DNA from: Desulforudis sp.
GTDB taxonomy: Bacteria > Bacillota > Desulfotomaculia > Desulfotomaculales > Desulforudaceae
Assembly: GCA_003604975.1 (NCBI GenBank)
Contig: QZIR01000013.1
Span: 1-50,035, forward strand
Length of the DNA stretch: 50,035 nucleotides
Direction of reading: 5' to 3'
Positions 30,034-46,640 of this stretch are shown here, piece after piece. The number at the start of each line of letters is the position of its first letter. Positions within the stretch are counted from its first letter, which is position 1. Made by a program: the position numbers and the translations under genes. The notes under the pieces were generated by a model. It was not told the origin of the DNA. It saw nothing but the letters and a program-made list of their open reading frames with translations, and searched no databases.

Positions 30034-32130
30034 TTAATCCACGTGAAACACTTTCCGCTGGTCGTATTCGGCCTTTTTCCCTTCGTTCCACTGGCTGACC
30101 GGGCGGTAATAACCTACGATGCGCGAATAGATCTCGGTCGTGCTGCCGCAACTGGGGCATTGCTGGTGTTCGCCGCTGATGTACCCGTGGCTGCCGCACA
30201 CCGAGTAAGTCGGCGTCACCGAAATATAGGGCAGGCGGTAGCTGTTAGTTACTTTCTTGACGAGCGCGGCGCAACCTTCCGGATCGGGCAAGGCCTCGCC
30301 CAGGAAGATATGGGCGACCGTTCCGCCTGTGTACAGCGTCTGCAGCGGTTCCTGGTGTTCGAGCATGGCAAAAACATCGTCAGTTTCGTAAACCGGCAAC
30401 TGGGTAGAGTTTGTGTAGTACGGCGCCGCGCCTTTCCTCCATTCGTCTTCGTTCGCGACAAGGATGCCCGGAAATTCCTTCTTGTCAATACGGGCCAGAC
30501 GGTGGGAACAACCCTCGGCAGGTGTCGCTTCCAGGTTATAAAGAATGCCCGTGCGTTCCTGGACACCCACTAGAAATTCCCGCATGAAAGTAAGGATACG
30601 CCTTGCGAAATCTCTGCCTTCCGGCTCATAAATGCTTTTGTGATGGAGGTTTTGTGCTGCTTCGGCGGCTCCCACCAACCCGATGGTGGCAAAATGGTTG
30701 GTCCAGTAACTCCCCGTTCTCTCTTTAACTCCCCGCAGGTAGTGGCGCGAGTAGGGATAGAGCCCGTTGCCGGTCAGCCTTTCCAGGACGCGGCGTTTGA
30801 TTTCCAGGGAGGTGACGGCGATAGAAGCCAGATGCGCCAAACGGGTGAAAAAGTCCTGTTCGTCCTGTGCCAGGTAAGCTAAACGCGGAAGGTTCAGTGT
30901 TACCACCCCGATGGAACCGGTCAAGGGGCTGGCGCCGAACAGTCCTCCACCCCGCTTTAAAAGCTCTTTGTTGTCGATGCGCAGGCGGCAGCACATGGAC
31001 CGCACGTCTTCCGGTTGGAGATCGGAATTGATGAAGTTGGCGAAGTAAGGCGTCCCGTATTTCGCCGTAACGGCAAAGAGCTTTTGTGCTACAGGACCTC
31101 CCCAGGCGAATTCCGGCGAAACATTGTAAGTTGGGATAGGAAAGGCAAACCCTCGCCCGCAGGCGTCGCCCTCCACCAGGACGTCGGCGAACGCCTCATT
31201 GATCGTATTCACTTCTTCCTGATAGTCACCGTAACAGGTATTCAGTTCCCGGCCGCCCACCACGGCGGGTTCGCCTTGCATAAAACCGGGGATGTCCAGA
31301 TCCATGGTAATGTTGGTGAACGGTGTCTGGTAGCCCGTCCGGGTGGGCACGTTCAGATTGAAAACAAACTCCTGGATGGCCTGCTTCACTTCCTTGTAGC
31401 TTAGGTTATCGGCGCGGACGAAGGGGGCGAGAAGCGTATCGACGTTGGAAAAAGCCTGGGCGCCCGCTGCTTCGCCCTGCAGGGTATAAAGGAAGTTGAC
31501 CATTTGGCCCAGGGCCGAGCGGAAGTGTTTGGGCGGTCCGGACGATACCTGGTTGGGCACCCCGCCGAAACCTTCTTCCAGGAGCTGTTTAAGATCCCAC
31601 CCTACGCAATACACACTCAGGTAACCAAGATCATGGATATGAAAAACGCCTTCAAGGTGCGCCCGCCGCACCTCGGGAGGGTAGATGCGTTCCAGCCAGA
31701 AGTGGGCGGCCGCGGTGTTCGAAAGGTAGCTGTTTAATCCCTGTAGGGAAAACGAGGAGTTGGCGTTTTCGGCTACGCGCCAATCCGCCTGGTTGAGATA
31801 GGATTCCACCAGGTCACAGCTTACCAGGGACTTCATTTCACGCAGCTGGCGATGCTGTTCGCGATACAATATATAGGCCTTGGCGGTCTGATGATAGCCA
31901 AGTTCCATGAGGCTTCTCTCCACGAGGTCCTGTACTTCTTCAACGGTGGGAATAGCAATACCCCGGTTTTCCAGAGCTTCAATAACGCGCTGCGTTACCG
32001 CCGGGGCGGCGTCAGTGTCCGCCCACCGGGCTTCTCCCGTAGCCTTGAAAGCCTGTGCGATGGCGTTGGTAATGCGCATACTTTTGAAAGCTATGGTGCG
32101 CCCATCGCGTTTTGTGATCGATGTAATCAT
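30034..32130 (-). CDS. nrdD: Anaerobic ribonucleoside-triphosphate reductase (class III)
   Basis: A 698-residue glycyl-radical enzyme that makes deoxyribonucleotides without oxygen. The N-terminal ATP-cone (MITSITKRDGRTIAFKSMRI) senses dATP/ATP. The core has FHIHDLGY and NLNVPTRTGYQTPFTN. The C-terminus has the zinc site (VCGSHGYISGEHQQCPSCGS) and the radical motif RIVGYYRP with Gly near residue 673. The start is ATG behind AAGGAGG. Upstream on the same strand are an intrinsic terminator and a cobalamin riboswitch, so it is likely shut off when adenosylcobalamin is plentiful and a B12-dependent class II enzyme can work. The activase NrdG is not intact nearby. Confidence 0.95.
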   Translation of the reverse strand: MITSITKRDGRTIAFKSMRITNAIAQAFKATGEARWADTDAAPAVTQRVIEALENRGIAIPTVEEVQDLVERSLMELGYHQTAKAYILYREQHRQLREMKSLVSCDLVESYLNQADWRVAENANSSFSLQGLNSYLSNTAAAHFWLERIYPPEVRRAHLEGVFHIHDLGYLSVYCVGWDLKQLLEEGFGGVPNQVSSGPPKHFRSALGQMVNFLYTLQGEAAGAQAFSNVDTLLAPFVRADNLSYKEVKQAIQEFVFNLNVPTRTGYQTPFTNITMDLDIPGFMQGEPAVVGGRELNTCYGDYQEEVNTINEAFADVLVEGDACGRGFAFPIPTYNVSPEFAWGGPVAQKLFAVTAKYGTPYFANFINSDLQPEDVRSMCCRLRIDNKELLKRGGGLFGASPLTGSIGVVTLNLPRLAYLAQDEQDFFTRLAHLASIAVTSLEIKRRVLERLTGNGLYPYSRHYLRGVKERTGSYWTNHFATIGLVGAAEAAQNLHHKSIYEPEGRDFARRILTFMREFLVGVQERTGILYNLEATPAEGCSHRLARIDKKEFPGILVANEDEWRKGAAPYYTNSTQLPVYETDDVFAMLEHQEPLQTLYTGGTVAHIFLGEALPDPEGCAALVKKVTNSYRLPYISVTPTYSVCGSHGYISGEHQQCPSCGSTTEIYSRIVGYYRPVSQWNEGKKAEYDQRKVFHVD

Positions 32131-32232
32131 GGCTGCCTCCTTAATATAGGCATAAATCCAGGCATGTCCTGTTCAAATGTCTTAAGGGTAACTACTCCAC
32201 CAGCATCCATAACCATCTCCTGTTGCAAAATG

Positions 32233-32267
32233 AAAAAGACCCTACCCCGGTTAACTTGGGGAGGGTC
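32233..32267 (-). terminator. Intrinsic terminator in the nrdD leader
   Basis: On the minus strand GACCCTCCCC (32258-32267) pairs with CCGGGGTAGGGTC (32238-32250), followed by TTTTTC (T-run at 32233-32237). It lies 102 bp before the nrdD start and downstream of the cobalamin riboswitch, so it is the natural expression platform. Confidence 0.75.
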
Positions 32268-32399
32268 CCAGCATGCAAAATCCCAGCATCTCCTGCCGTC
32301 TGCGCACGCACATTAAAGGCAGGCGCACCGGTAGAGCCCTTGATTTCGAACACGCTGCTCCCCGCCTCTCGACCGGAGGCAGATAAGGAGCGCTAACAA

Positions 32400-32562
32400 G
32401 CAGGCAGGTCTCCTGGCTCGCGGTCATTGTCGCCGTACCCGCCTTCCCGGGTTACCGGTGGCGTCCTGGGGGGCGACTCATCGCTTACAGTAGCGGGACT
32501 GCTCAGGAATTGCACCTGATTCCCTATTATCCCCTGGTTAGGGGCACCTGCTTATCCTTTAT
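32400..32562 (-). promoter_or_regulatory. Cobalamin (B12) riboswitch controlling nrdD
   Basis: Read on the minus strand, the conserved elements appear in order: AGGTGCCC, GGGAATCAGGTGCAATTCC, CAGTCCCGCTACTGTAA, ACGCCACCGGTAACC, GGGAAGGC, and the B12 box AGCCAGGAGACCTGCC (32405-32420). This is the full core of the AdoCbl riboswitch class. It starts within about 16 bases of the hydE stop, so it lies between hydE and nrdD. The terminator at 32233-32267 follows after about 130 bases. Ends are approximate. Confidence 0.93.
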
Positions 32563-32577
32563 GTGCTAAGAGCCATT

Positions 32578-33663
32578 CTAGCATGGGCGCCGATGGCCGT
32601 CAACAACTCCATGGAAACCGTCGTCCCGGAGAATATGTCCGTAACCGATAGCTACCTTTCGACCGATAGCGGCCATTTCCCGCTCCCACCAGGCGAACGA
32701 TGCCGCGCCTTCCCCCGCAGGCCGGCCCCGACCGGGGTAAATGTCGTAATGCTGCCGGTACGGGGCTGGGGTGAGGTCCGGCATGACGACGTTCGCGCCC
32801 GCCTGGAGGGCCCGCCGTCGCCCGGCCGGGTCGAGGGTGGCCACCGCGGTGGTGGCCGGCAAGTGGGTGTGAGGCAGCAGGAGGCGGGTAATCGCCAGGA
32901 CCTTCAATGTCATTTCCAGGGAACCGGCCGGGGAGGTTGCCAGAGGGGTGTCCGGATGGGGGATAAAGGGACCGATCCCGGCCATTTCAACGCAGAGGTC
33001 TTTAAGCAAAAGGATATCAGAAACCAGTGTTTCCACGGTCTGGCCGGGGAGGCCGATCATATTCCCGGCTCCCACTTGATAACCCAGTTCTTCGAGCCAA
33101 CGCAGTTCCTGGAGACGTCTTTCAAGGGTGGTGCCGGGGCGCAGGCGCGCAAACAGCGCCGGATCGGCCGTCTCGTGCTTTAGAAGGTAGCGGTTCGCTC
33201 CCGCGTCACGCAGTCGTCGATAGTCGTCCCTGGAGCGGTCACCGAGGGAGAGGGTTACGGCCACGTCCAACTTTTCTTTTATCCGCTGGATCAACCCGGC
33301 GAGGTCATCTACGGTGTAAGCCGGGTCCTCGCCGGACTGCAGTACGATGCTCCAGTATCCCTCGTCACGTGCCTGCCGGGCGGCGGCCAGGATTTCCTCC
33401 GGGGCCATCCGGTAACGGGTAAGAAGACGGTTATCCCGTCGCAGACCGCAGTAGAGGCAATTCCTAACGCAGTAGTTTGAGAACTCGATAATCGCGCGTA
33501 GGTGCACCTCTTCTCCCAGGTGCTCGGCTCGCACTTGGTCGGCCGCCCGGTACAGGGCTTTGGCTTGTTCTCCTTCGGTCTGGAGGAGTGCGTCTATTTC
33601 TTCCCTGGTCAAGGTATGGGTATTGACAGCTCTGATCAGGGTAACGGCAAGTTCAACGGGCAT
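32578..33663 (-). CDS. hydE: [FeFe]-hydrogenase H-cluster maturation radical SAM enzyme HydE
   Basis: A 361-residue radical SAM protein with the cluster motif CVRNCLYC (C-x3-C-x2-C) near residue 65, then YWSIVLQSGEDP and GNMIGLPGQT. HydE acts after HydG in building the azadithiolate-bridged diiron subcluster. Its ATG is 7 bp after the hydF stop, and its ribosome binding site GGGAG overlaps the last hydF codons, which implies coupling. It is the last gene of the operon TM1266-like, aspA, hydG, hydF, hydE. The second FeS-binding Cys set seen in some HydE proteins was not found. Confidence 0.95.
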   Translation of the reverse strand: MPVELAVTLIRAVNTHTLTREEIDALLQTEGEQAKALYRAADQVRAEHLGEEVHLRAIIEFSNYCVRNCLYCGLRRDNRLLTRYRMAPEEILAAARQARDEGYWSIVLQSGEDPAYTVDDLAGLIQRIKEKLDVAVTLSLGDRSRDDYRRLRDAGANRYLLKHETADPALFARLRPGTTLERRLQELRWLEELGYQVGAGNMIGLPGQTVETLVSDILLLKDLCVEMAGIGPFIPHPDTPLATSPAGSLEMTLKVLAITRLLLPHTHLPATTAVATLDPAGRRRALQAGANVVMPDLTPAPYRQHYDIYPGRGRPAGEGAASFAWWEREMAAIGRKVAIGYGHILRDDGFHGVVDGHRRPC

Positions 33664-34972: not shown

Positions 34973-36448
34973 TTACATTTTGAGGTCGCGTTCCCCGGCC
35001 GCCACCCGCTGCAGCAGCGCCTGTAACCGCCCGGCCTGTTGGGGCATTTGCCGCCCGAACTCTTCGGTGTACTGCCGGATGATGTCTTCCCCGGCGGACC
35101 GTCTTTCGGGCGCGGCGTAGTCCAGCAGGTACTCTTTGAAAGTGAGCACCGCGTTCGGGATGCAGAAATATTTCACCAGGCCCTTCTTGGCCAAGGCCAT
35201 GAAATTACACCCGGTGCGGGCGGCACGGTAACAGGAGGTACAAAAAGAAGGGAGGTAGCCGTCCTGGCAGAGTTCGTAAATGAATTCATCCAGGGAGCGG
35301 GTATCCCCCAACTGGAATTGCTCGCGGTCCGGGATGTGTTCTTGTTCCATCTCCGCGTAGCCGCCCACGGCGATCCGTGACCCGGCGTCGACCTGCGAGA
35401 CGCCCAGCGGGATGGCCTCGCGCCGGAAATGGGGCCGTTCGCGACAGGTGAGGATCATGCCGGTGTAAGGCACCGCGCAGCGCAGTACGGCGACCGCTTT
35501 TTTGAAGTCTTCATCGCTAACCAGGTAAGGAGAGTTGGTGGTAAGCGGGGTATTCAAAGCCGGCTCCAACCGGGGGAAGGAGATGGTGTGTGGGCCCACG
35601 CCGAACTCCCGCTCCAGGTCCAGGGCATGGCAGAGAAGCCCCAACACCTCAAACCGCCAGTCGTAGAGCCCGAAGAGAGCGCCGATGGCCACGTCGTCGA
35701 TCCCCGCTTCCTGCGCCCGGTGCAGGGCGAATAGCCGCCAGAGGTATGAGCCCTTGAGGGTGTTCAACGGGTGCATTCTCCGATAGGTATCGTAGTGGTA
35801 CGTCTCCTGAAACACCTGATAGGTACCAATGCCGACGTCTTTCAACCGCCGGTATTCTTCCACGGTTAAGGGCGCGGCGTTGACGTTGACCCTTCTGATC
35901 TCACCCCTGCCGTTTTTGCTGGCGTAAATCTTCTCGATCGTTCGGCACATAAAGTCAACGTCGCTCGCCGGGTGTTCACTATAAACCACGATCAGGCGCT
36001 TGTGCCCCTTCGATGTCAGAACCCTCACTTCTTCCTCCAGTTCGGCCATCGAAAGAGTTTTCTTGGCAACTTGGTCATTGGTCTGGCGGAAGCCGCAGTA
36101 AGTGCAGTTGTTTACGCATGGACTGGAAATGTACAGGGGGGCGAACAGGACGATGCGATTCCCATAAATCTCCTGCTTGATCCAGTTCGCTGCTTGAAAG
36201 ATCTCCGCCCAGAGTTCCGTGTCCCGGTTGTTCAGCAATACGGCTGCGTCTTCCGGGCTAAGCCCATGAAACTCTCTGGCCTTGCTTAGAACCTCTTCCA
36301 CTTCCAGCCTCTCGGGATTAGCCTTGCGTTTCAGGACAGCCTGGAGTTCCTCCTCGCTAATAAAGTTGCTTCTCTTTTCAGAGGCCTCATAGGCCACAAT
36401 CTGTGCCAGGCGCCGCTCCCGCCAGGCCTGTTCCGCTACGGTCGACAT
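34973..36448 (-). CDS. hydG: [FeFe]-hydrogenase maturation tyrosine lyase HydG
   Basis: A 491-residue radical SAM enzyme that splits tyrosine to yield the CO and cyanide ligands of the H-cluster. The SAM cluster motif is CVNNCTYCGF near residue 110. The C-terminal auxiliary cluster is bound by the CTSCYRAARTGCNFM region, which keeps the first two Cys of the C-x2-C...C set. Length is normal (about 470-490). ATG is behind AAGGGGG; 74 bp separate it from aspA. Together with HydE and HydF it forms a full maturation set, serving the four HydA proteins in this window. Confidence 0.95.
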   Translation of the reverse strand: MSTVAEQAWRERRLAQIVAYEASEKRSNFISEEELQAVLKRKANPERLEVEEVLSKAREFHGLSPEDAAVLLNNRDTELWAEIFQAANWIKQEIYGNRIVLFAPLYISSPCVNNCTYCGFRQTNDQVAKKTLSMAELEEEVRVLTSKGHKRLIVVYSEHPASDVDFMCRTIEKIYASKNGRGEIRRVNVNAAPLTVEEYRRLKDVGIGTYQVFQETYHYDTYRRMHPLNTLKGSYLWRLFALHRAQEAGIDDVAIGALFGLYDWRFEVLGLLCHALDLEREFGVGPHTISFPRLEPALNTPLTTNSPYLVSDEDFKKAVAVLRCAVPYTGMILTCRERPHFRREAIPLGVSQVDAGSRIAVGGYAEMEQEHIPDREQFQLGDTRSLDEFIYELCQDGYLPSFCTSCYRAARTGCNFMALAKKGLVKYFCIPNAVLTFKEYLLDYAAPERRSAGEDIIRQYTEEFGRQMPQQAGRLQALLQRVAAGERDLKM

Positions 36449-36522
36449 GAGAAAACCCCCTTAAAATAACAGCATTAACAGCCGGTCTTTAATGGTTTAT
36501 GAACACCGCTTTCAGTATCTAC

Positions 36523-37974
36523 TTATCGCCCTCCCCCTCTCGGCTTGAAGTAGCGCGCCCCGGCTACGCCGGGGGTGGTGAGTTCCTCGGGGCGCAAGAT
36601 GGCGTCCACTTCTTCACGGGTGAAAAATCCCTCCTCGACCAAGACCTCGGCCACCGGTCTCTGCATGTTCACCGCTCGCAGGACCATCTCGGCGGCTCTT
36701 TCATAGCCGAGATAGGGCACAAAGGCTGTAATCACGCCCTGGCTGGCGTCCAGAAGCCGGCGGCAGCGCCCGGCGTCGGCCTGAACGCCCCGAACGCACT
36801 TGACGGCCAGGATCTGGACAGCGCCGGTGAGGATGGTGAAGGACTGCAGGAGATTATGAGCGATGAGGGGTAGAAAGGCGTTGAGTTCGAGTTGGCCGGA
36901 CGCGGCGGCAAGGCTGACAGCCAGGTCGTTGGCCATCGTCTGGTAGGCCGCCTGCGTGACCATTTCCGGGATGACCGGATTGAACTTGCCCGGCATTATG
37001 GACGAACCGGCCTGTACGGGCGGGAGCTTAATCTCGCCCAGCCCCGCCCGGGGACCCGACGCGAGCAGGCGCAGGTCTCCGGCGATCTTCGCCAGATTAA
37101 CCGATGCGGCCTTCAAAAACCCCGACACTTCCACAAATACGTCGGCGTTTTGCGTGGCCTCGAAGGTATTCTCGGCACGTGCCAGGCCAAACCCGGTCAA
37201 CTCGCGGAGGATCTCAATGACACGGTATGTATAGCGCCGGCCGGCGTTCAGCCCCGTGCCCACGGCCGTGCCGCCCAGATTGACCTGCCGCAGCCGCTCT
37301 TCCGCTTTATAAAGCCGCCACCAGTCGCGGGCTATGGCCTCCGCCCAGGCGCCGAACTCCTGCCCCAGGGTAACCGGCACGGCCTCCTGCAGCTCGGTGC
37401 GCCCGATTTTGAGGATCGCGGCAAATTCTTTCTCTTTGGCCTGCAGCGCTCCCTGCAGCTCCGCCATGGCCTGCGCCAGTCCCCGCCCCTGTTGGATGGC
37501 GGCGACCCGCAGGGCGGTAGGATAGACATCGTTCGTGGACTGCCCCAGGTTGACGTGGTCGAGGGGATGAATGACCCTGTAATCTCCCTTTTCCCCGCCA
37601 AGAAGCTCAATGGCCCGGTTGGCAAGAACCTCGTTTACGTTCATGTTGGTTGAAGTACCGGCACCGCCCTGGAGGGCGTCGACGATGATCTGGTCGCGCC
37701 ACCGGCCTTCGGCCAATTCTTCTGCTGCCCGCATGATGGCCGCCCCCCGGCGGTCATCCAATAGCCCGGCCTCGACATTGGCCATCGCCGCCGCTTTCTT
37801 CACCAGGGCCAGCGCCCGGATAAGTCCTGGGTGGACCGCCGTCCCGGAGACGGCAAAGTTTTCCCGTGCCCTGAAGGTGTGAACACCATAGTAGGCATCC
37901 CGGGGTACAGCTACTTCACCCAGTGCGTCTTTCTCGATCCGAGTGTCAGGGGAATCCGTTATGCTGTTTTCCAA
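36523..37974 (-). CDS. aspA: Aspartate ammonia-lyase (aspartase/fumarase superfamily)
   Basis: A 483-residue protein of the aspartase/fumarase II group. The signature GSSIMPGKFNPV and the regions QGGAGTSTNMNVNEVLANRA and HPLDHVNLGQSTNDVYPTA (STND with the substrate-binding Thr/Asn) are visible. The start is TTG 37974, 11 bases after GGAGG and only 2 bp after the preceding stop. Aspartase releases ammonia from aspartate, and genes of this type recur inside [FeFe]-hydrogenase maturation operons. A link to the dithiomethylamine bridge nitrogen has been proposed but is not shown by the sequence. Fumarase cannot be excluded. Confidence 0.85.
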   Translation of the reverse strand: MENSITDSPDTRIEKDALGEVAVPRDAYYGVHTFRARENFAVSGTAVHPGLIRALALVKKAAAMANVEAGLLDDRRGAAIMRAAEELAEGRWRDQIIVDALQGGAGTSTNMNVNEVLANRAIELLGGEKGDYRVIHPLDHVNLGQSTNDVYPTALRVAAIQQGRGLAQAMAELQGALQAKEKEFAAILKIGRTELQEAVPVTLGQEFGAWAEAIARDWWRLYKAEERLRQVNLGGTAVGTGLNAGRRYTYRVIEILRELTGFGLARAENTFEATQNADVFVEVSGFLKAASVNLAKIAGDLRLLASGPRAGLGEIKLPPVQAGSSIMPGKFNPVIPEMVTQAAYQTMANDLAVSLAAASGQLELNAFLPLIAHNLLQSFTILTGAVQILAVKCVRGVQADAGRCRRLLDASQGVITAFVPYLGYERAAEMVLRAVNMQRPVAEVLVEEGFFTREEVDAILRPEELTTPGVAGARYFKPRGGGR

Positions 37975-37976
37975 GG

Positions 37977-38231
37977 TCAGGTGCGCCTCCCGGTGAAAGC
38001 GCTTTTTACCTTCACGCCCGGTAAGGCCCCGAGCTTACCCGTCAACGCGCCGACAGCGTCGGTACTCCCGTCAACGATCAGGGCGATCACCGAAAAGCCT
38101 TTCTCACGGTAGGGGATACCCATGCGACCGACGATAATGTCGGCATGTACACACAGGATTTCGTTGACCCTGGACGCCATTTCCTGCCGGTTTTCCACTA
38201 CAATGCCCAGAACACCGATCCGAGTCTCCAT
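37977..38231 (-). CDS. TM1266-type putative iron-only hydrogenase system regulator
   Basis: An 84-residue ACT-like protein (METRIGVLGIVVENRQEMAS, RVNEILCVHADIIVGRMGIP, SVIALIVDGSTDAVGALTGKLGALPGV). It matches the TM1266 family named after Thermotoga, which sits in hydrogenase maturation operons and resembles NikR C-terminal regulatory domains. It has no DNA-binding part, so it may sense a ligand for another protein. ATG 38231 is preferred over ATG 38237, which touches the ribosome binding site AGGGAGGG. It is the first gene of the maturation operon. Confidence 0.85.
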   Translation of the reverse strand: METRIGVLGIVVENRQEMASRVNEILCVHADIIVGRMGIPYREKGFSVIALIVDGSTDAVGALTGKLGALPGVKVKSAFTGRRT

Positions 38232-38244
38232 CAACATCCCTCCC

Positions 38245-38281
38245 TAAAAAAGTCAAGGCCCACCGGTAGCAAGGGTGGGCC
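38245..38281 (-). terminator. Intrinsic terminator or attenuator before the maturation operon
   Basis: On the minus strand GGCCCACC (38274-38281) pairs with GGTGGGCC (38257-38264) around a 9-base loop, then TTGACTTTTTT. The T-run ends 13 bases before the start codon and abuts the ribosome binding site of the regulator gene. It thus lies in the leader and may attenuate the operon. The 478-bp gap between this gene and hydA1 also holds the hairpin at 38518 and no other clear gene. Confidence 0.65.
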
Positions 38282-38517
38282 CGCTATCCCTTGCCTTCAG
38301 GTTTAACCCTCCACGCAGGACATCAGTATGCGTATGCAAAAAAGGCCACAACGAGTATCTGGACCTCATCACCCGGTACCTCAAGGATACCGACACTATG
38401 CGGGAGTACCTCCGAAAACGAGGAGTGCAACTGCCTACTAAAATTGCATATAGCGGTTGACAGGGTTCTATCAACCCATCGGCGCGGCAGACATGCCGGG
38501 CGTACATCGAGTAGAGT

Positions 38518-38605
38518 AACGCCGCAGTAATTGCTTGCGGCGTTATCCCTTCCACAGAACCGTACGTACGGGCCTCGTATACCCGGCGTTCGACAGTTCA
38601 TAGGT
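38518..38605 (-). other. Hairpin and possible group II intron 3'-end relic
   Basis: AACGCCGCA (38518-38526) and TGCGGCGTT (38536-38544) form a 9-bp perfect stem. Just beside it, read on the minus strand, is a segment starting GTCGAACGCCGGGTATACGA and ending CGTACGTACGGTTCTGTGG. That resembles domain V/VI of bacterial group II introns, which end in a CGTACGGTTC-type strand. The two halves of the putative domain V pair imperfectly, and no reverse transcriptase is present. Low confidence. Confidence 0.3.
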
Positions 38606-38709
38606 ATTTAGGAGCACATTTTACCCCTTTTTAGAAACAAGAATCCAGCAAATATCAAGGCTTTCCGGGTTTGAGGCGCCGCGGCTACTCCAAGGACTCC
38701 CGGTCGGAC

Positions 38710-40305
38710 CTACCCCGGGTGATTATTGGTCTTGCGGTGACCCGGAACAACATCATACCGAACTACGGGACCGCGGTTCACATAAGTGGTGTGAAGCAAC
38801 TGTTTCGCAAGTGCGCTATACGGCTCTCCCAAGAAATTCTGGTAGAGCGCCAGAACCTCGGAATTCTCATACGATGCGCGCTGAATCTCGGCTGCGTCTT
38901 TAACATAGAGAGCATCGATCCGCGCTTGGCGGATAGGATCGGTTGGCGGAACGGCCGTTCTAGGCTGGCCGCCGCCGCCGATACAGCCGCCGGAACAGGA
39001 CATGAACTCGATGAAATGCCAGCCGTTCGGGTTGCCCGCCAGCACCATGTCGCAAACGGTGCGGGCATTCTTGAGTTCATGGGCAACGGCCACGTTAACC
39101 GTCACGCCGTTAATCTGTACAGAGGCTTCCTTAATCCCGACCAAGCCGCGAACCGGCGTGAAATTCAGCAAGTCCTGCGGAGGCTGCACCCCGGTAACGA
39201 AAAAGTAAGCTGTTCTAAGCGCTGCTTCCATTACGCCGCCCGTAGCACCAAAGATAATAGCTGCACCGGTATCTTCGCCCATCAACGAATCATAGCCCTC
39301 GACCGGCAGGTTGGCAAAGTCGATGTTCCGGGCCTTGATCATGCGTGCCAACTCGCGCGTGGTCAAAACCACATCGACATCGCGGCTCACCAGAGAATTA
39401 TTCCAGTACCGGCTGGCGGCATTCATCTCAGGCCGTTGGGCTTCGAATTTCTTGGCCGTACAAGGCATGATGGATACCGAAAGGATCTTTTCGGGATTCA
39501 GTCCTCGGGCCTTAGCGTAGTAAGTTTTGGCCAAAGCTCCGAACATCTGTTGCGGCGACATGCAAGTCGAGACATTCGGAATAAGGGCAGGATAGAAATA
39601 CTCCATAAACTTAACCCAACCGGGGCTGCAGGAGGTGAACATCGGTAACGGGTACGTGCCCTTAACAACCCGCTTGAGAAATTCTGTGGCCTCCTCCATA
39701 ATTGTGAGGTCAGCGGTAAAGTTGGTATCAAGGACGGCATCAAAGCCGAGACGGCGCAGCGCCGCCACCTGCTGACCCGCTACCCATGTTCCGGGAGCAA
39801 GCCCGAACTCTTCCCCAAGAGCCACCCGGGTGGCTGGTGCAGTCTGAACAACTACATGGTAATCGGGGCTGGCCAAGGCATCGAAAACCACCGCGGTCTC
39901 GTCCCGCTCCCGGATGGCGGGGAGGCCATGTTTACCGGGACATACAAGGGCACACTGCCCGCAATTAACACAAACAATCTCTTGCGCCACCTTCTTATCC
40001 CAAAATCCTAAAACCGTCTGAACCTCGTTGCAAACACGGACGCACGCATCACAACTACCACGCAAACAAAACTCCTGGTAGTAAACAATAGACGGATTGT
40101 CAGGAGCAATCGGTACGACGTCGGCCGATGCCAGAGTTGAGGCATAGCCCACAGCAGGTGCAACAAGACCACCAGCAGGTGCAACAAGACCACCCAAAGT
40201 AACACCCGCAAGACTGGCTAACCCCAAACCGCCCATGAGCTTTAAAAAAGACCGCCGGGTCAATTCCTTTCGGGTTTCCTCCTTGGTAAACAGATCTTCA
40301 GACAT
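38710..40305 (-). CDS. Exported [FeFe]-hydrogenase (HydA1), Tat signal
   Basis: A 531-residue protein with a Tat signal (LTRRSFLKLMGG, residues 15-26). A duplicated GGLVAPA motif follows at residues 38-51. Two 4Fe-4S sites come next. The first has unusual spacing (C80-x4-C85-x2-C88-x3-C92). The second is CVNCGQCALVC. The H-cluster motifs read TSCSPGW, MPCTAKKFE and MSCSGGCIGGGGQP. The C-terminus is a fused small-subunit-like tail (YENSEVLALYQNFLGEPYSALAKQLLHTTY). It should oxidise or produce H2 outside the cytoplasm. It is most like the hydA4 product, and no electron-transfer subunit stands beside it. Part of its 5' end is tandemly duplicated upstream. Confidence 0.92.
   Translation of the reverse strand: MSEDLFTKEETRKELTRRSFLKLMGGLGLASLAGVTLGGLVAPAGGLVAPAVGYASTLASADVVPIAPDNPSIVYYQEFCLRGSCDACVRVCNEVQTVLGFWDKKVAQEIVCVNCGQCALVCPGKHGLPAIRERDETAVVFDALASPDYHVVVQTAPATRVALGEEFGLAPGTWVAGQQVAALRRLGFDAVLDTNFTADLTIMEEATEFLKRVVKGTYPLPMFTSCSPGWVKFMEYFYPALIPNVSTCMSPQQMFGALAKTYYAKARGLNPEKILSVSIMPCTAKKFEAQRPEMNAASRYWNNSLVSRDVDVVLTTRELARMIKARNIDFANLPVEGYDSLMGEDTGAAIIFGATGGVMEAALRTAYFFVTGVQPPQDLLNFTPVRGLVGIKEASVQINGVTVNVAVAHELKNARTVCDMVLAGNPNGWHFIEFMSCSGGCIGGGGQPRTAVPPTDPIRQARIDALYVKDAAEIQRASYENSEVLALYQNFLGEPYSALAKQLLHTTYVNRGPVVRYDVVPGHRKTNNHPG
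40150..40195 (-). repeat. 21-bp tandem repeat inside the hydA1 signal region
   Basis: The unit GCAGGTGCAACAAGACCACC (one base short of the full 21) occurs twice in a row on the + strand. In the protein it doubles GGLVAPA in the stretch just after the hydrophobic core of the Tat signal, lengthening it by seven residues. Confidence 0.75.
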
Positions 40306-40408
40306 TTAATCAACCCCTCTCCTTAAATAAGACCGCCGGTCAATTCCTTTCGGGTTTCCTCCTTGGCAAACAGATCTTCAGACATTTAATCAACCCCTCT
40401 CCTTAAAT
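40248..40408 (-). repeat. Tandem duplication of the hydA1 start region
   Basis: An 81-bp unit (40248-40328) is repeated as an 80-bp unit (40329-40408) with very few differences. Each copy holds the ribosome binding site and the first 17 codons of hydA1. The upstream copy lacks one base in the Arg-Arg region (CCGCCGGT against CCGCCGGGT). Confidence 0.9.
40323..40385 (-). CDS. Upstream 20-codon ORF made by the duplication
   Basis: The upstream copy of the hydA1 start reads MSEDLFAKEETRKELTGGLI and stops at TAA (40323-40325). A one-base deletion changes the Tat motif RRSFLK to GGLI and brings the stop. It carries the same GGAGAGGGGTTG ribosome binding site as hydA1, and its stop lies 17 bases before the hydA1 ATG. 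It could be translated and affect hydA1 initiation, or be a neutral by-product. Confidence 0.5.
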   Translation of the reverse strand: MSEDLFAKEETRKELTGGLI

Positions 40409-40416
40409 CTTAAATA

Positions 40417-41029
40417 AAGATACCCTGAATCCGTGATCCTGTTTGCTTGAAATACCTAGAAATCGGGCCTTATCTCGCGTATAAACATCGCCGTGGGTGA
40501 TAAGGGGGGTATTCACCCCGGGGACTTTGGTTTTGTCCAGACGTCGGGCCGGCTCCGTCCGGGCCTTGAGTTCCGGCGTGTTGTTTATCCCTGCGCGACA
40601 GCCGGCACGCCTGCGGGTTTCGCTACGCTCTGGGCGTCGAACCCTCCAGCACCCGGAAGTTCTCCACGAAGAACAGGATGACCAGGAGCGCGCCGATGAG
40701 CAAACCGAGGAAGCCCACCCACTCCATGAGAAACTTTGCTTCGGCAAAGCTTGACTTTCGTGGCTTGTATTTTCGCTGGTTAAATAATCAAATAATAACA
40801 GATGCGCTGTTGTTTTGTAAAGCCCCTGTTGTAATTTTCGTACTCACTAAAGCTAACCCTGCGACGGGAGTTAATTCTTCTTTGGACTGCTCAATGATGA
40901 ATTTCACGCGTACACCCCGCTGGTGAAATATTTGGTAGCGAATATGTGCCTATTATCTCTATTATACGCGAGATAAGGCCCGATTTCTAGGTATTTCAAG
41001 CAAACAGGATCACGGATTCAGGGTATCTT
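40417..41029. mobile_element. 613-bp segment bounded by 68-bp perfect inverted repeats
   Basis: The left arm 40417-40484 (AAGATACCCTGAATCCGTGA...CGCGTATAA) and the right arm 40962-41029 are exact reverse complements over 68 bases. The 477-bp inside has no transposase; it is GC-rich on the left and AT-rich on the right. No target duplication is evident. It lies between hydA1 (minus) and the hydA2/hydA3 operon (plus). Either a non-autonomous transposon or an invertible segment fits. It makes up over half of the 1156-bp gap. Confidence 0.75.
40623..40727 (-). CDS. Possible small membrane protein inside the inverted-repeat segment
   Basis: A 34-codon frame reads MEWVGFLGLLIGALLVILFF then VENFRVLEGSTPRA: one clean transmembrane helix with a short charged tail. 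No clear ribosome binding site precedes it; a hairpin GCTTTGC-CGAA-GCAAAGT lies just before the ATG. It may be a fragment of a larger gene or a real micro-protein. Function unknown. Confidence 0.3.
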   Translation of the reverse strand: MEWVGFLGLLIGALLVILFFVENFRVLEGSTPRA

Positions 41030-41104
41030 ATTCCAACTTGGCGCGGGGCAATGAAAATGTCGCGGCCGATAATAAACTGATCCAGGAATGATTGGCACGA
41101 ATCC

Positions 41105-41153
41105 GGCAGCTGAAGCCGCCGAAACCTGGCGACCCCGATTTGTGGGGAGGTCG
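41105..41153 (+). other. Hairpin pair in the hydA2/hydA3 operon leader
   Basis: GGCAGC-TGAA-GCCGCC (41105-41120, one mismatch) resembles the first hairpin of the RNA candidates at 29744 and 46457. A second hairpin follows: CGACCCC (41130-41136) with GGGG-A-GGTCG (41144-41153). The region up to the terminator at 41332 is AT-rich and holds no gene. Confidence 0.4.
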
Positions 41154-41331
41154 TCCGGCAGAATAAATAATAAATTAAGTAAAAATGTTTTTGAAACAGC
41201 AGGATATTATCCGTGAACAGCGAACCGATTTATAGATAAAACTAGACGGATAAAACGGATAACCGGAACAGCAGTAGTACGAAGCTATTGTTTTCCGTGA
41301 TCACGTAAACCCGAAAAATTAAAAGCGAACA

Positions 41332-41387
41332 AAAGACCACGAAGGTCGGCCGAAAGGTACCGAAGGCTTTCGTGGTCTTTCTTTTTT
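41332..41387 (+). terminator. Strong terminator in the leader of the MvhD-type/hydA2/hydA3 operon
   Basis: A 12-bp perfect stem, AAAGACCACGAA (41332-41343) and TTCGTGGTCTTT (41369-41380), followed by CTTTTTT. It lies 75 bp before the first gene and after at least 300 bp of non-coding sequence. No other gene is upstream on this strand, so the terminator most likely attenuates this operon. Confidence 0.75.
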
Positions 41388-41461
41388 GGGGGTGAGGTTG
41401 GGAAGACCGAAAGGTTGTTCGCGGGCCGAGGGACAGGTATGGCAGGAAGGAGTGGACAGCG

Positions 41462-42286
41462 ATGGCGGACGGTTTTGAGCCAAAGATTATCGGATTTCTA
41501 TGTAACTGGTGCAGCTACGGCGGGGCGGACTTGGCCGGGGTAAGCCGGTTTCAGTATCCGCCCAATATCCGGGTGGTCAGGGTAATGTGCTCCGGGAGGA
41601 TTCACCCGAGCTTTGTCTTTAAGGCATTATTGCACGGGGCTGACGGCGTCCTCGTCGGCGGTTGTCATCCCGGCGACTGTCACTATGTTAAGGGAAATTA
41701 TTATACGGAGCGGCGGATCAGGATAATGAGGCGGCTGTTGGAGTGGCTGGGTATTGAGCGCGAACGGCTTTGGGTGCGCTGGATATCCGCGGGGGAGGGC
41801 AGCCGGTTTGCGAGCACCGTGACCGAGTATACGGCCTTCTTGCGGGAACTCGGTCCGAACACCCGGCGTGTTGCAGATGCGGACTACGAGGACCTGGCAC
41901 GGGTGGCGTCGGCCATGGGGTCAGTTGGCCGGCTGGTGCTGGAAGAAGATGTGTGCATGGTGGAATTGGCGAAGTATTTTCTGGAATATACACAGCGAGA
42001 GTCCTGCGCCGAATGCATCCCTTGCCGTATTGGCACCAAGCGTCTCCTGGAGGTTTTGGAGAGGGTGGTGCAAGGAGAGGCGGCTGAAAACGAGTTTGCT
42101 CTATTAGAAGAAGTAGGCGCGGCGATAGGGCGGTCGGCGAAGTGCGATCTGGGCCGGATCGCGGGCCGAGCGGTGGCGGACGTGGCGAAATACGGCCGTG
42201 ATGAGCTTAAAGCGCATCTCCAGGGTACGTGTTTGGCTACCGTGGAAGCCAACCGGGATTGGCAGGCCCTCGTCGGTTCCTTATAA
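41462..42286 (+). CDS. Fusion of MvhD-type hydrogenase iron-sulfur subunit and NuoF C-terminal 4Fe-4S domain
   Basis: A 274-residue cytoplasmic protein; ATG behind AAGGAGTGG. Residues 8-133 are an MvhD/FrhD domain with Cys 14, 17, 43, 68 and 73 ([40 protein letters not shown]), the [2Fe-2S] unit that links Mvh hydrogenase to heterodisulfide reductase HdrA. Residues about 154-240 are the C-terminal domain of NuoF/HydB ([20 protein letters not shown] then [10 protein letters not shown]) with Cys 182, 185, 188 and 228, the spacing of the N3 4Fe-4S cluster. The FMN/NADH-binding part of NuoF is absent. It is followed by hydA2 and hydA3, so a role as electron bridge from [FeFe]-hydrogenase to an Hdr-like partner is inferred. 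Confidence 0.88.
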
Positions 42287-42432
42287 GCGACCCGGGGAGG
42301 ATAGCCGGTAATTTGGCAGCGGAATCCGCGGGCTGCTGTTGTAATGATACGAAGCCTATGCGCGGGGTGGATACTCAAAAACTAATAAATCGAATGCGAT
42401 ATACGGACTGCCGTTGTTAAGGAGGCGGAGAT

Positions 42433-44181
42433 ATGGGAAGGGTCAGGTTGGTTATAGACCGGCAAGCGATTGAAGTGGAATCCGGAACGACCATCCTGGA
42501 AGCTGCGGCCCGGGTGGGGAGTAAGATTCCCACCCTCTGTTACCTTGAAGGTATCAACGAGGTGGGGGCCTGTCGTATCTGTGTGGTCGATGTTAAAGGG
42601 AAGAAGGAGTTTGCTACGGCCTGCAACACGCCGGTCGAGGACGGGATGGAGGTGCGCACCAACACGCCGGCCTTGCGTGCCGCCCGCCGCGCGACAGTGG
42701 AGATGATCCTATCAGATCATCCTATGGAGTGCCTGACCTGTATTCGTAACGGCAACTGCGAGTTGCAGACATTGGCCTCTCAGTTGAATGTACGCACGGT
42801 TCGGATGAGCGGGGCCACACATGCCGATCTGCCGTGCGATGACTCCACCTCCGGTATCGTACGTGACCCGCGGAAGTGCATCTTTTGTCAGCGCTGTGTC
42901 AGTGTTTGTTCAGATGTTCAGGGCGTCGGTGCGATTGAATTGCAGGGCCACGGTTTTGAGGCGTTTATCGGTCCGCCGCCTAACCTTAAGCTGGATGAAA
43001 CGCGGTGCGTGCAATGTGGTCAGTGCGCGCTGGTCTGTCCCACGGGGGCGATTACCGAAAAGGATGAAACCGACAAGGTTTGGGCGGCGCTCTTTGACCC
43101 GCGGAAATACGTCGTGGTGCAGACGGCACCAGCGACACACGTCACCATCGGGGAAATGTTCGGCCTGCCGGTCGGAACCGATATCACCGGGAAGATGGTG
43201 GCCGCTTTGCGGCGGCTGGGCTTCGACGCGGTGTTTGACACCAACTTCACCGCCGACCTGACCATCATGGAGGAAGGTTCCGAGCTGATCAAGCGCTTAA
43301 CCGAAGGGGGCGCACTCCCCCAATTGACCTCCTGCAGCCCGGGCTGGATCAAGTACGTAGAGCATTTTTACCCTAAACTCTTACCGCACGTTTCTTCCTG
43401 TAAGTCGCCCCAACAGATGTTCGGGGCGATCGCCAAAACGTATTTCGCCGAAAAGACCAGCCGGGATCCCGCCAGCATCTTCGTGGTGTCGGTGATGCCC
43501 TGTACCGCCAAGAAGTTCGAGGCGGCGCGACCGGAGATGGACACGGCGAAGCGCTACTGGAACAATTCCCACATCAGTCAAGACGTTGACGTTGTACTGA
43601 CGTCGCGGGAACTTGGGCGGATGATCAGGCGTACGGGGATCGATTTTGCCGTTTTGCCGGACGACGAGTACGATGAGCCGTTGGGCATCTCCACCGGAGC
43701 GGCAGCGATCTTCGGCGCTACCGGCGGGGTAATGGAAGCGGCTCTGCGCACGGGTTACGAACTGGTTACCGGTAAGACCCTTGAGCAAATCGATTTTCAG
43801 GAGGTGCGTGGCCTTGAGGGGATTAAGGAGGCGGTAGTGCCGTTGAACGGGGTTAACTTAAAGGTGATGGTGGCGCATGGATTGCATAACGCCCGTCACG
43901 TCATGGAAAGGCTGAAGGCCGGAGAACTCAAGGATTACCACTTTATTGAAATCATGTGCTGTCCGGGCGGGTGTATCGGGGGCGGCGGCCAGCCGATCCC
44001 GACGGATACGGAAGCAAGGCAGAACCGGATCGAGGGACTCTACCAGGTGGACGCGGTGATGAAGTACCGGAAGTCGCACGAAAATCCGGCGGTGAAGACG
44101 CTCTACGAGGAATTCCTTGGGAAACCCTTGGGCCATCGGTCGCACGAACTGCTTCATACCCGATATGTACCCAGACCGTAA
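42433..44181 (+). CDS. Cytoplasmic [FeFe]-hydrogenase HydA2 (CpI-like architecture)
   Basis: A 582-residue protein with ATG behind AAGGAGGCGG and no signal peptide. N-terminal [2Fe-2S] domain: Cys 36, 47, 50, 64. His-ligated 4Fe-4S: His 96, Cys 100, 103, 109. Two 4Fe-4S sites: Cys 149, 152, 155, 159 and 192, 195, 198, 202. H-cluster motifs: TSCSPGW (Cys 301, Ser 302), MPCTAKKFE (Cys 357), EIMCCPGGCIGGGGQP (Cys 510, 514). The C-terminal tail reads SHENPAVKTLYEEFLGKPLGHRSHELLHTRY. This is the modular layout of Clostridium CpI and of the HydA subunit of bifurcating hydrogenases. The neighbours with MvhD-type and NuoF-type domains suggest a multi-subunit enzyme. Confidence 0.95.
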   Translation: MGRVRLVIDRQAIEVESGTTILEAAARVGSKIPTLCYLEGINEVGACRICVVDVKGKKEFATACNTPVEDGMEVRTNTPALRAARRATVEMILSDHPMECLTCIRNGNCELQTLASQLNVRTVRMSGATHADLPCDDSTSGIVRDPRKCIFCQRCVSVCSDVQGVGAIELQGHGFEAFIGPPPNLKLDETRCVQCGQCALVCPTGAITEKDETDKVWAALFDPRKYVVVQTAPATHVTIGEMFGLPVGTDITGKMVAALRRLGFDAVFDTNFTADLTIMEEGSELIKRLTEGGALPQLTSCSPGWIKYVEHFYPKLLPHVSSCKSPQQMFGAIAKTYFAEKTSRDPASIFVVSVMPCTAKKFEAARPEMDTAKRYWNNSHISQDVDVVLTSRELGRMIRRTGIDFAVLPDDEYDEPLGISTGAAAIFGATGGVMEAALRTGYELVTGKTLEQIDFQEVRGLEGIKEAVVPLNGVNLKVMVAHGLHNARHVMERLKAGELKDYHFIEIMCCPGGCIGGGGQPIPTDTEARQNRIEGLYQVDAVMKYRKSHENPAVKTLYEEFLGKPLGHRSHELLHTRYVPRP

Positions 44182-44218
44182 CGGGGTGAAGCCATTTTTC
44201 CTGGAGGAGGTTGAAAAT

Positions 44219-44518
44219 ATGCATAGCGGTGACGCCGATCCAAAAGTGGTCTCGGAGCTGGCCCGGTCTTTGCTGGCTTTGGTCCGTGGTGAGTCTTGCG
44301 GCGAGTGCCTTCCCTGCTGGCACGGGATCAGGCAGATTTCGGCGGTTCTCGATAAGGTTGACAACGGAAGCCCGGTTAGTGCAGAGGAATTAGCCGCGGT
44401 CGGCGAGTTGGCACGTACCGTTGGTCAGGGCGCCAAATGCGGAGTGGGGCGCATCGGGGGCAGGCTTGTCCTGGAACTCCTGTCACGCTATTCCTCCGTA
44501 TTTCAGGCCCGTGTATAA
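44219..44518 (+). CDS. Stand-alone NuoF-type C-terminal 4Fe-4S protein
   Basis: A 99-residue protein; ATG 44219 behind GGAGGAGG. The frame runs further back into the end of hydA2 but that part is out of frame with hydA2 and not conserved. Cys 27, 30, 33 and 74 (GESCGECLPCWHGIRQ...GAKCGVGRIGG) have exactly the spacing of the N3 cluster ligands in NuoF and HydB. It lacks the FMN, NADH and SLBB parts. It sits between hydA2 and hydA3 and would form a small electron-transfer unit, much like the second half of the fusion protein at 41462. Its partner is probably HydA3. Confidence 0.88.
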   Translation: MHSGDADPKVVSELARSLLALVRGESCGECLPCWHGIRQISAVLDKVDNGSPVSAEELAAVGELARTVGQGAKCGVGRIGGRLVLELLSRYSSVFQARV

Positions 44519-44546
44519 CATCTTCTAAATGAAGGAGGGTTGAACG

Positions 44547-46289
44547 ATGAGTACTTTTGCGCTGACCATCGATGGACAAAGAATAGAAGTGGAACCGGGG
44601 ACGACGATTCTGGATGCCGCAGCTCAAGTGGGGATCAAGATACCTACCTTGTGCTACCTGAAGGATATCGGTCATGACGTCGGCGCCTGCCGTATCTGTG
44701 TGGTCGAGGTCGAAGGAGAGAAGGAATTCAAGACTGCCTGTAACACCCCGGCGGCGGCGGGGATGGTGGTTCATACGAATACCCCGGCGGTACGCGAGGC
44801 GCGCCGGGTAACCGTAGAACTGATCCTGGCCGATCATCCCGTGGAATGTCCCACGTGCGTAAGGAACGGTTTGTGTGAATTACAGGATCTGGCGGCCACA
44901 TTCGGCCTCCGGGAAGTCCGCTTTCCGCGGACACGGCCTGCTTACCCCATCGACGACTCTTCGGTGGCGATTATCCGCGATCCGAACAAGTGTATTCTCT
45001 GCCGCCGCTGCGTTACGGTGTGCCAGCAGGTGCAGGGTGTGAGCGCCATCGAATTCAAGAAGGTAGACGGCGAGGCCGTCGTTACTCCTGTCCTCAAAGT
45101 GCCGCTTGCGGAGACCAACTGTGTAAACTGCGGGCAGTGTGTCCTGGTCTGCCCGGTGGGCGCGATCTACGAGCGTGACGAGACCGCCAGGGTCTGGGCG
45201 GCCCTGGCCGACCCGCAAAAACACGTGGTGGTACAGACCGCGCCGGCGACACACGTCTCCATCGGGGATGCGTTCGGCCTGCCGACGGGTACGGACATCA
45301 CCGGCAAGATGGTGGCGGCTTTGCGGCGGTTCGGCTTCGACGCCGTGTTTGACACCAACTTCACGGCCGACCTGACCATCATGGAGGAGGGTTCCGAGCT
45401 TCTCGAGCGGATCAACAACGGCGGCGTCCTGCCGCAGATTACCTCGTGCAGCCCTGGCTGGATCAAGTACATCGAACACTTCCACCCCGATCTCTTGCCG
45501 CACGTTTCTTCCTGTAAGTCGCCCCAGCAGATGTTGGGGGCGCTGGCGAAGACATTTTATGCGCAGCGGAAGGGGGTCGACCCCGCCGACGTATTTGTTG
45601 TCTCGATCATGCCCTGTACGGCCAAAAAGTACGAGGCGGCGCGCCCGGAGATGAACGACAGCGGCTACCGGGACGTGGATGTGGTGCTGACCTCGCGCGA
45701 ATTGGGCCGGATGATCAAAGAAGCCGGTCTGGACTTTGCCAACCTGCCCGACGAGGACTATGACGAACCGATGGGCATCGGCAGCGGCGCCGCCCAGATT
45801 TTCGGCGCCACGGGCGGCGTAATGGAAGCCGCTCTCCGTACGGCGTACGAATTAGTCACGGGCAAGACGTTGGATCAGATTGACTTTGAAGACGTCCGGG
45901 GCCTGAAGGGGATCAAGGAGGCGACGGTACCGGTTGACGGCCTTGACGTCAAGGTGCTGGTATCCCATGGACTGGGCAACGCGGGAATTCTAATGGATAA
46001 GCTTCGCGCCGGGGAACTAAAGGATTATCACTTTATCGAAGTCATGTGCTGTCCCGGCGGGTGTATCGGGGGCGGCGGTCAGCCGATTCCGACCGGTACC
46101 CTGGCCCGTGAGCGGCGCATCGGCGGGACCTACGCGCGCGATAAGGCGTTGCAGTACCGCAAGTCGCATGAGAATCCCCAGGTCAAGAAGCTTTACGAGG
46201 AATACCTGGAAAAGCCTTTAGGTCATAGATCGCACGAACTGCTTCACACCACCTACGTTGCTCGTGGATGGCAGCCGCGGGTGGAATAG
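44547..46289 (+). CDS. Cytoplasmic [FeFe]-hydrogenase HydA3 (CpI-like architecture)
   Basis: A 580-residue paralogue of HydA2 with the same domain order: [2Fe-2S] (PTLCYLKDIGHDVGACRICV), His-ligated cluster (DHPVECPTCVRNGLCEL), two 4Fe-4S sites (KCILCRRCVTVC, NCVNCGQCVLVC), H-cluster motifs TSCSPGW, MPCTAKKYE and EVMCCPGGCIGGGGQP, and the SHENPQV...HELLHTTY tail. ATG is behind AAGGAGGG. Stretches of DNA nearly identical to hydA2 (for example 45495-45542 against 43381-43428, three differences) indicate recent duplication or gene conversion. Two terminators follow the gene, so it ends the operon. Confidence 0.95.
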   Translation: MSTFALTIDGQRIEVEPGTTILDAAAQVGIKIPTLCYLKDIGHDVGACRICVVEVEGEKEFKTACNTPAAAGMVVHTNTPAVREARRVTVELILADHPVECPTCVRNGLCELQDLAATFGLREVRFPRTRPAYPIDDSSVAIIRDPNKCILCRRCVTVCQQVQGVSAIEFKKVDGEAVVTPVLKVPLAETNCVNCGQCVLVCPVGAIYERDETARVWAALADPQKHVVVQTAPATHVSIGDAFGLPTGTDITGKMVAALRRFGFDAVFDTNFTADLTIMEEGSELLERINNGGVLPQITSCSPGWIKYIEHFHPDLLPHVSSCKSPQQMLGALAKTFYAQRKGVDPADVFVVSIMPCTAKKYEAARPEMNDSGYRDVDVVLTSRELGRMIKEAGLDFANLPDEDYDEPMGIGSGAAQIFGATGGVMEAALRTAYELVTGKTLDQIDFEDVRGLKGIKEATVPVDGLDVKVLVSHGLGNAGILMDKLRAGELKDYHFIEVMCCPGGCIGGGGQPIPTGTLARERRIGGTYARDKALQYRKSHENPQVKKLYEEYLEKPLGHRSHELLHTTYVARGWQPRVE

Positions 46290-46414: not shown

Positions 46415-46444
46415 TTTACAGAATCACTACGGGTCGTCTATACT
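46415..46444 (+). promoter_or_regulatory. Promoter of the DUF3842/hydA4 operon leader
   Basis: TTTACA (46415-46420), 18-bp spacer, TATACT (46439-46444). A transcript would start near 46451, just before the leader hairpin. Confidence 0.6.
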
Positions 46445-46450
46445 ATTAGG

Positions 46451-46553
46451 ATAAATGGGTGGCCCGAAGCTACCCCGGCAGTTGCCGTTAGATGGAGATA
46501 CTAACCACGGAAGTTAGACTTTGCCGAAGCAAAGTTGCCCCCCGTGGTTTTTT
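46451..46553 (+). ncRNA. Structured leader with switchable stems and terminator (candidate riboswitch/attenuator)
   Basis: The leader has hairpin GGGTGGC-CCGAA-GCTACCC (46457-46475) and terminator stem AACCACGG (46503-46510) with CCGTGGTT (46542-46549) and TTTTTT. Inside the terminator is a second hairpin ACTTTGC-CGAA-GCAAAGT (46518-46535). CTAAC (46501-46505), part of the terminator base, can also pair with GTTAG at 46487-46491 or at 46513-46517. These pairings exclude each other, as in a switch. The DUF3842 gene starts 87 bp further on. I do not recognise the RNA class. Confidence 0.5.
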
Positions 46554-46640
46554 GTTGGTGGTTTCCCAATTGTATTAATGAAAGAGAGGCGGGTAACTGG
46601 GCTTATTGGCCCATGGCTAATGCAGGAGACCAGAAACGTA

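Follow-up and report, generated by a model that had tools for sequence, protein, structure and literature searches.

In the window, the whole 50,035-nucleotide stretch of Desulforudis sp. DNA analysed here, a Tat-signal [FeFe]-hydrogenase gene, hydA1 (38710-40305, minus strand; PF02906 and PF02256), is divergent from an operon encoding a FlpD/NADH_4Fe-4S protein, hydA2 and hydA3 (41462-46289, plus strand), which is syntenic in G002, a genome of one contig (2,349,476 bp), at 86-88%. Between them lies a segment bounded by two 68-nt arms (40417-40484 and 40962-41029) that are 100% complementary and 477 nt apart. The initial annotation had described a 68-bp mismatch-free inverted repeat between divergent hydA1 and the hydA2/hydA3 operon, and both the repeat and, from ORFs and domain matches, its position were borne out. 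The 5' end of hydA1, with its ribosome-binding region, is also repeated in tandem (second copy at 40338-40408, minus strand; 99% identical to 40258-40328 at a spacing of 80 bp), and this duplication (40258-40408) gives a short truncated start.

Scanning the whole window (50 kb) identified this pair of arms as its only perfect long inverted repeat, and the chance of a 68-nt perfect repeat (~N^2/2 x 4^-68, or ~1e-32) was negligible. An arm 23-mer with up to 3 mismatches gave 2 matches in the window against 0.00 expected. Searching the 3.14-Mb genome of the organism itself (G000) for further arm copies, a check that the initial annotation had proposed, returned 0 extra, which does not support a simple MITE. 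An Rfam search of the segment gave no credible match.

Comparison with a congener

In a search of 113 genomes of the order, the segment was found outside G000 only at the orthologous site of G001, a genome assembled from a metagenome (Desulforudis sp. isolate J_13; contig JAHRFU010000108.1). In the comparison among 41 genomes, the G001 segment was recovered as two collinear pieces with arms at 100%, unchanged orientation and an interior 273 bp longer. Because this congener contig comes from a separate metagenome assembly and shows identical arms and junctions, an assembly artefact in G000 was ruled out; the G001 segment contig itself ends in a 47-bp chimeric-looking stretch.

The segment differed between G000 and G001 by ~6 substitutions in ~600 bp (~99% identity). 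At ~1% divergence, ~1.3 arm differences would be expected over 136 positions and 0 were observed, so that identity of the arms is unremarkable and the active maintenance by recombination suggested in the initial annotation is unneeded. Gene conversion between the arms was likewise considered and found unnecessary at this divergence.

Identity of the arms

Within the order-wide search, an IS1380 element of G100 gave a match to the arm that begins exactly at the terminal CC (70% identity), and its transposase belongs to the IS1380 family (NF033539; PF13701). Both arms bear the IS end CCTGAATCCGTGA, which also marks intact IS1380 elements of 1695-1697 bp in G071 and G074; the complete copies there have the ends CCTGAATCCGT and ACGGATTCAGG and, in several cases, 5-bp direct target duplications, in agreement with IS1247 of the same family (1672 bp, IR 16/13, DR 5; PMC3281130). 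Using the CCTGAATCCGT... termini of these intact relatives to set the boundary, the left arm (40417-40484, plus strand) consists of a 7-bp flank, AAGATAC (40417-40423), and 61 bp of IS1380 5' end (40424-40484) in the orientation opposite to that of the right arm, and the right arm (40962-41029, minus strand) of the 61-bp 5' end (40962-41022) and its 7-bp flank (41023-41029). The 11-13-bp IS terminus is thereby present in both arms, 7 bp in from the outer edges of the 68-bp repeat. Considering that the native terminal repeats of the intact 1.7-kb relatives measure only 11-13 bp and that these elements come with 5-bp target duplications, the 68-bp arms probably represent a secondary inverted duplication.

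The additional 273 bp in G001 contained a C-terminal transposase fragment (codons for LYHDHGTSEQFHSELKTDLDLE), called IS1380 by NCBIfam (NF033539, E 1.3e-8), followed by the IS 3' end CACGGATTCAGG, which closes the extra DNA and is complementary to the IS end CCTGAATCCGTG found in the arms. Neither the G000 nor the G001 segment contained an intact transposase gene, only fragments, and elsewhere in G000 IS1380-type matches were weak or partial. No direct 5-bp or 7-bp target duplication was found around the remnant, the flanks AAGATAC and GTATCTT being inverted; because the duplication is missing and the flank inverted, we class the segment only as a rearranged IS1380 remnant and not as an intact member. 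It resembles IS1380 elements (NF033539/PF13701; IS1247, ISPme1 and ISEcp1) in its terminus, transposase fragments and 5'-end promoter-like site, and differs from them in lacking an intact transposase and target duplication, in being mostly deleted, and in carrying an inverted duplicate of its 5' end, together with 7 bp of flank. Judged from sequence, the segment is a decayed single-copy IS1380 remnant with host-gene debris, of a family that is already known.

These features also bear on the transposon suggested in the initial annotation, which was right as to origin, given that the arms come from the end of an insertion sequence, and wrong as to kind, since the segment is not a repeated non-autonomous element whose long ends are its own. 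A MITE, or a non-autonomous transposon of another type, mobile as a 613-bp unit with 68-bp terminal repeats, would account for IS-derived ends, loss of the transposase by internal deletion and long perfect terminal repeats. However, the segment is single-copy, with only the orthologous G001 site elsewhere in the order, the native IS repeats are far shorter, the flanks (GATAC/GTATC) are inverted where a direct target duplication would stand, and the interior holds debris of a host operon from the same site, making this explanation very improbable.

Interior of the segment and the operon of G002

Read on the minus strand, the interior runs from the IS 5' end with transposase codons 1-21 through a leader, an nrfD tail, a possible second transposase scrap and transposase codons 34-54 to the inverted IS end. 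The right IS1380 remnant (40838-41022, minus strand) comprises the 5' end, a promoter-like site at 40989-40961, a GTG start at 40907 and codons 1-21 (VKFIIEQSKEELTPVAGLALV); it is 100% identical in G001, where it continues into the C-terminal transposase fragment and 3' inverted repeat. Adjoining the left arm, codons 34-54 of an IS1380-family transposase (LDKTKVPGVNTPLITHGDVYT; 40478-40540, minus strand) were recovered by a tblastn search whose query was the G100 transposase (76% identity across 21 aa; E 2.7e-8 when linked to the N-terminal match). Next to these, 40545-40574 (minus strand) is tentatively a second IS1380-like transposase scrap, weakly matching L018 of G004 (90% over 30 bp, E 8e-7), an ORF that matches PF13701.

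The remaining pieces came from a host operon. An nrfD 3' end (MEWVGFLGLLIGALLVILFFVENFRVLEG...; 40586-40727, minus strand) showed 87% DNA identity to G002 184369-184514, the end of a 407-aa NrfD protein (PF03916), and was the sole nrfD match in the G000 assembly. A small membrane ORF that had been considered as a cargo peptide gene was rejected, the ORF being this nrfD tail. Beside it, the promoter and leader remnant of a hycI-hydA-FeS-nrfD operon (40730-40837, minus strand) was 86% identical to G002 178229-178334, upstream of hycI; it retains a promoter-like TTTACA-18-TATTAT (40821-40792), identified by consensus match only, and a truncated terminator-like hairpin.

In G002, the leader, hycI, hydA, FeS and nrfD form one operon (178229-184514), directly followed by ACT and fumarase genes and divergent from the hydA2/hydA3 operon, and no IS1380 sequence was found at this corresponding site. 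The leader and nrfD tail are thus opposite ends of one G002 operon, 6 kb apart; because both remnants map to these ends, the operon appears to have been cut down to its promoter and tail in G000 and G001. There hydA1 now occupies the operon's former end, a site without hydA1 in G002. That the G002 operon simply moved to the right side of the window (46.5-50 kb) was not shown: hycI is 84% alike there, but hydA is only 72% alike and nrfD of the matching G001 operon has 53% protein identity.

The make-up of the interior also weighs on the other proposal of the initial annotation, an invertible segment in which the 68-bp arms recombine and the leader promoter flips between hydA1 (exported) and hydA2/hydA3 (cytoplasmic). 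As in fim- or Bacteroides-type invertible promoter segments, perfect inverted repeats surround a promoter-like site between divergent operons, here TTTACA-18-TATTAT directed at hydA1, and homologous recombination between 68-bp inverted repeats could occasionally flip the segment. Unlike in those phase switches, however, the repeats here stem from IS1380 ends to which the start of the transposase remains joined, what lies between them is debris of genes, both assembled genomes (G000 and G001) show one orientation, and no dedicated invertase was seen near the segment among the ORFs at 36000-46000; moreover, in G002 two divergent operons stand at this site and the segment is missing from between them. 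The switch is therefore unsupported, and we give it very little credence. We regard as fainter still the prospect that the IS-born arms now act as low-frequency inversion sites redirecting the leader promoter between hydA1 and hydA2/hydA3, a switch made from transposon debris. A conspicuous, perfect inverted repeat of 68 bp that lies between divergent operons can be a dead IS end instead of a switch. The statement that no recombinase is encoded nearby held for intact genes, none being noticed among the ORFs at 36000-46000, but not for fragments, given the IS1380-family pieces inside the segment and an IS1634-family piece past hydA1.

Proposed origin of the scar and the setting of hydA1

We consider it highly probable that the segment is a decayed, immobile IS scar whose long arms are an inverted duplication and not functional recombination sites. 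An IS1380-family element would have inserted into the intergenic region that separated the FlpD-hydA2-hydA3 operon from a divergent, older leader-hycI-hydA-FeS-nrfD operon. A later ~6-kb deletion in that operon would have fused its promoter and leader to the last nrfD codons, most of the IS would also have been deleted, and the first 61 bp of the IS, together with 7 bp of adjoining DNA, would have been left as an inverted copy at the other side, beside the incoming hydA1. We infer both this order of events and the origin of the inverted duplication, which may have arisen by template switching or by rearrangement between IS copies. Against this scenario stand the missing target duplication, the restriction of the segment to two genomes, one of them metagenome-assembled, and the 7 bp beyond the IS end that are inverted in the arm, which neither a simple insertion nor two independent insertions explain; since the 7-bp flank is common to both arms, it argues for a template-switch-like or other rearrangement and against two independent insertions. 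Replicative intramolecular inversion was rejected, as it does not predict an identical flank outside both 5' ends.

Members of the IS1380 family are known to move neighbouring DNA and have promoters that point outward (PMC9330008, PMC3281130), and a transposable module resembling those of ISPme1 or ISEcp1 could have carried hydA1 in and could supply its promoter. The absence of hydA1 from the G002 site would fit, as would G001 contig C133, in which the DNA upstream of hydA1 differs starting 3 bp from the arm boundary; likewise, as in ISEcp1-type capture, the gene adjoining the IS1380 end is a newcomer to the site and has a promoter directed at it. However, hydA1 lies on the 5' side, beyond the 5' termini of the IS copies, whereas the DNA captured by known modules is located past the 3' end, and the best promoter candidate is the host operon leader. 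Inspection by eye of the far end of hydA1 (near 38760) showed neither an alternative inverted repeat nor a 5-bp duplication; an IS1634 fragment lies there instead, and we regard such a module as unlikely. The IS scar that we favour would make the locus a case of IS-driven [FeFe]-hydrogenase operon remodelling in the Desulforudis lineage, with one operon lost, another hydA gained and a promoter possibly captured; as an ordinary genome scar, it is mainly of value for correcting the annotation and as a small example of how operons evolve.

The IS1634-family transposase fragment is located at the hydA1 3' boundary (window 38671-38750; L042:3480-3620 in G001, where NF033559 gave E 3.9e-10), and ~95 gap columns separate G000 and G001 at this boundary.

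Terminator-like hairpin leaders (CCACGAA...CCGAAG...CGTGG, with a T-run where intact) were observed at 46440-46556 and 41328-41392 (both plus strand), at 40730-40837 (minus strand) and at L043:8230-8352. They stand upstream of the hydA2 operon, of the DUF3842 gene and, in G002, of hycI-hydA. The three intact leaders folded far better than shuffled sequences (z -3.4 to -5.0), none had a credible Rfam match, and they could be attenuators common to hydrogenase operons. The G002 leader has the terminator-like hairpin and T-run (z -4.97); in the G000 segment the 3' half of the stem and the T-run are deleted (z -0.44), so that transcription could hypothetically continue to hydA1, which the leader promoter candidate faces. 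It may be that hydA1 inherited the leader promoter of the old operon, freed of the attenuator-like hairpin.

Further differences between G000 and G001 were observed around the locus. Identity was ~99% over ~37400-41528, on the hydA1 side, and mostly 83-91% from 41529 onward, in the hydA2 operon; the sharp step at ~41.53 kb, inside the FlpD gene, suggests a recombination boundary. The 5' end of hydA1 occurred in G001 in two versions, one following the segment and terminating in an inverted hydA1 scrap (L041:14375-14549), the other with unrelated upstream DNA coding for a protease-like protein (L042:1-1880), which would reflect either a strain mixture or a real duplication. Another rearrangement was seen at L041:5523-8269 of G001, where ~2.5 kb of DNA corresponding to window 30044-32618 separates hydA3 from the DUF3842 gene. 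A cobalamin riboswitch was detected at window 32386-32566 (minus strand, 125 bits).
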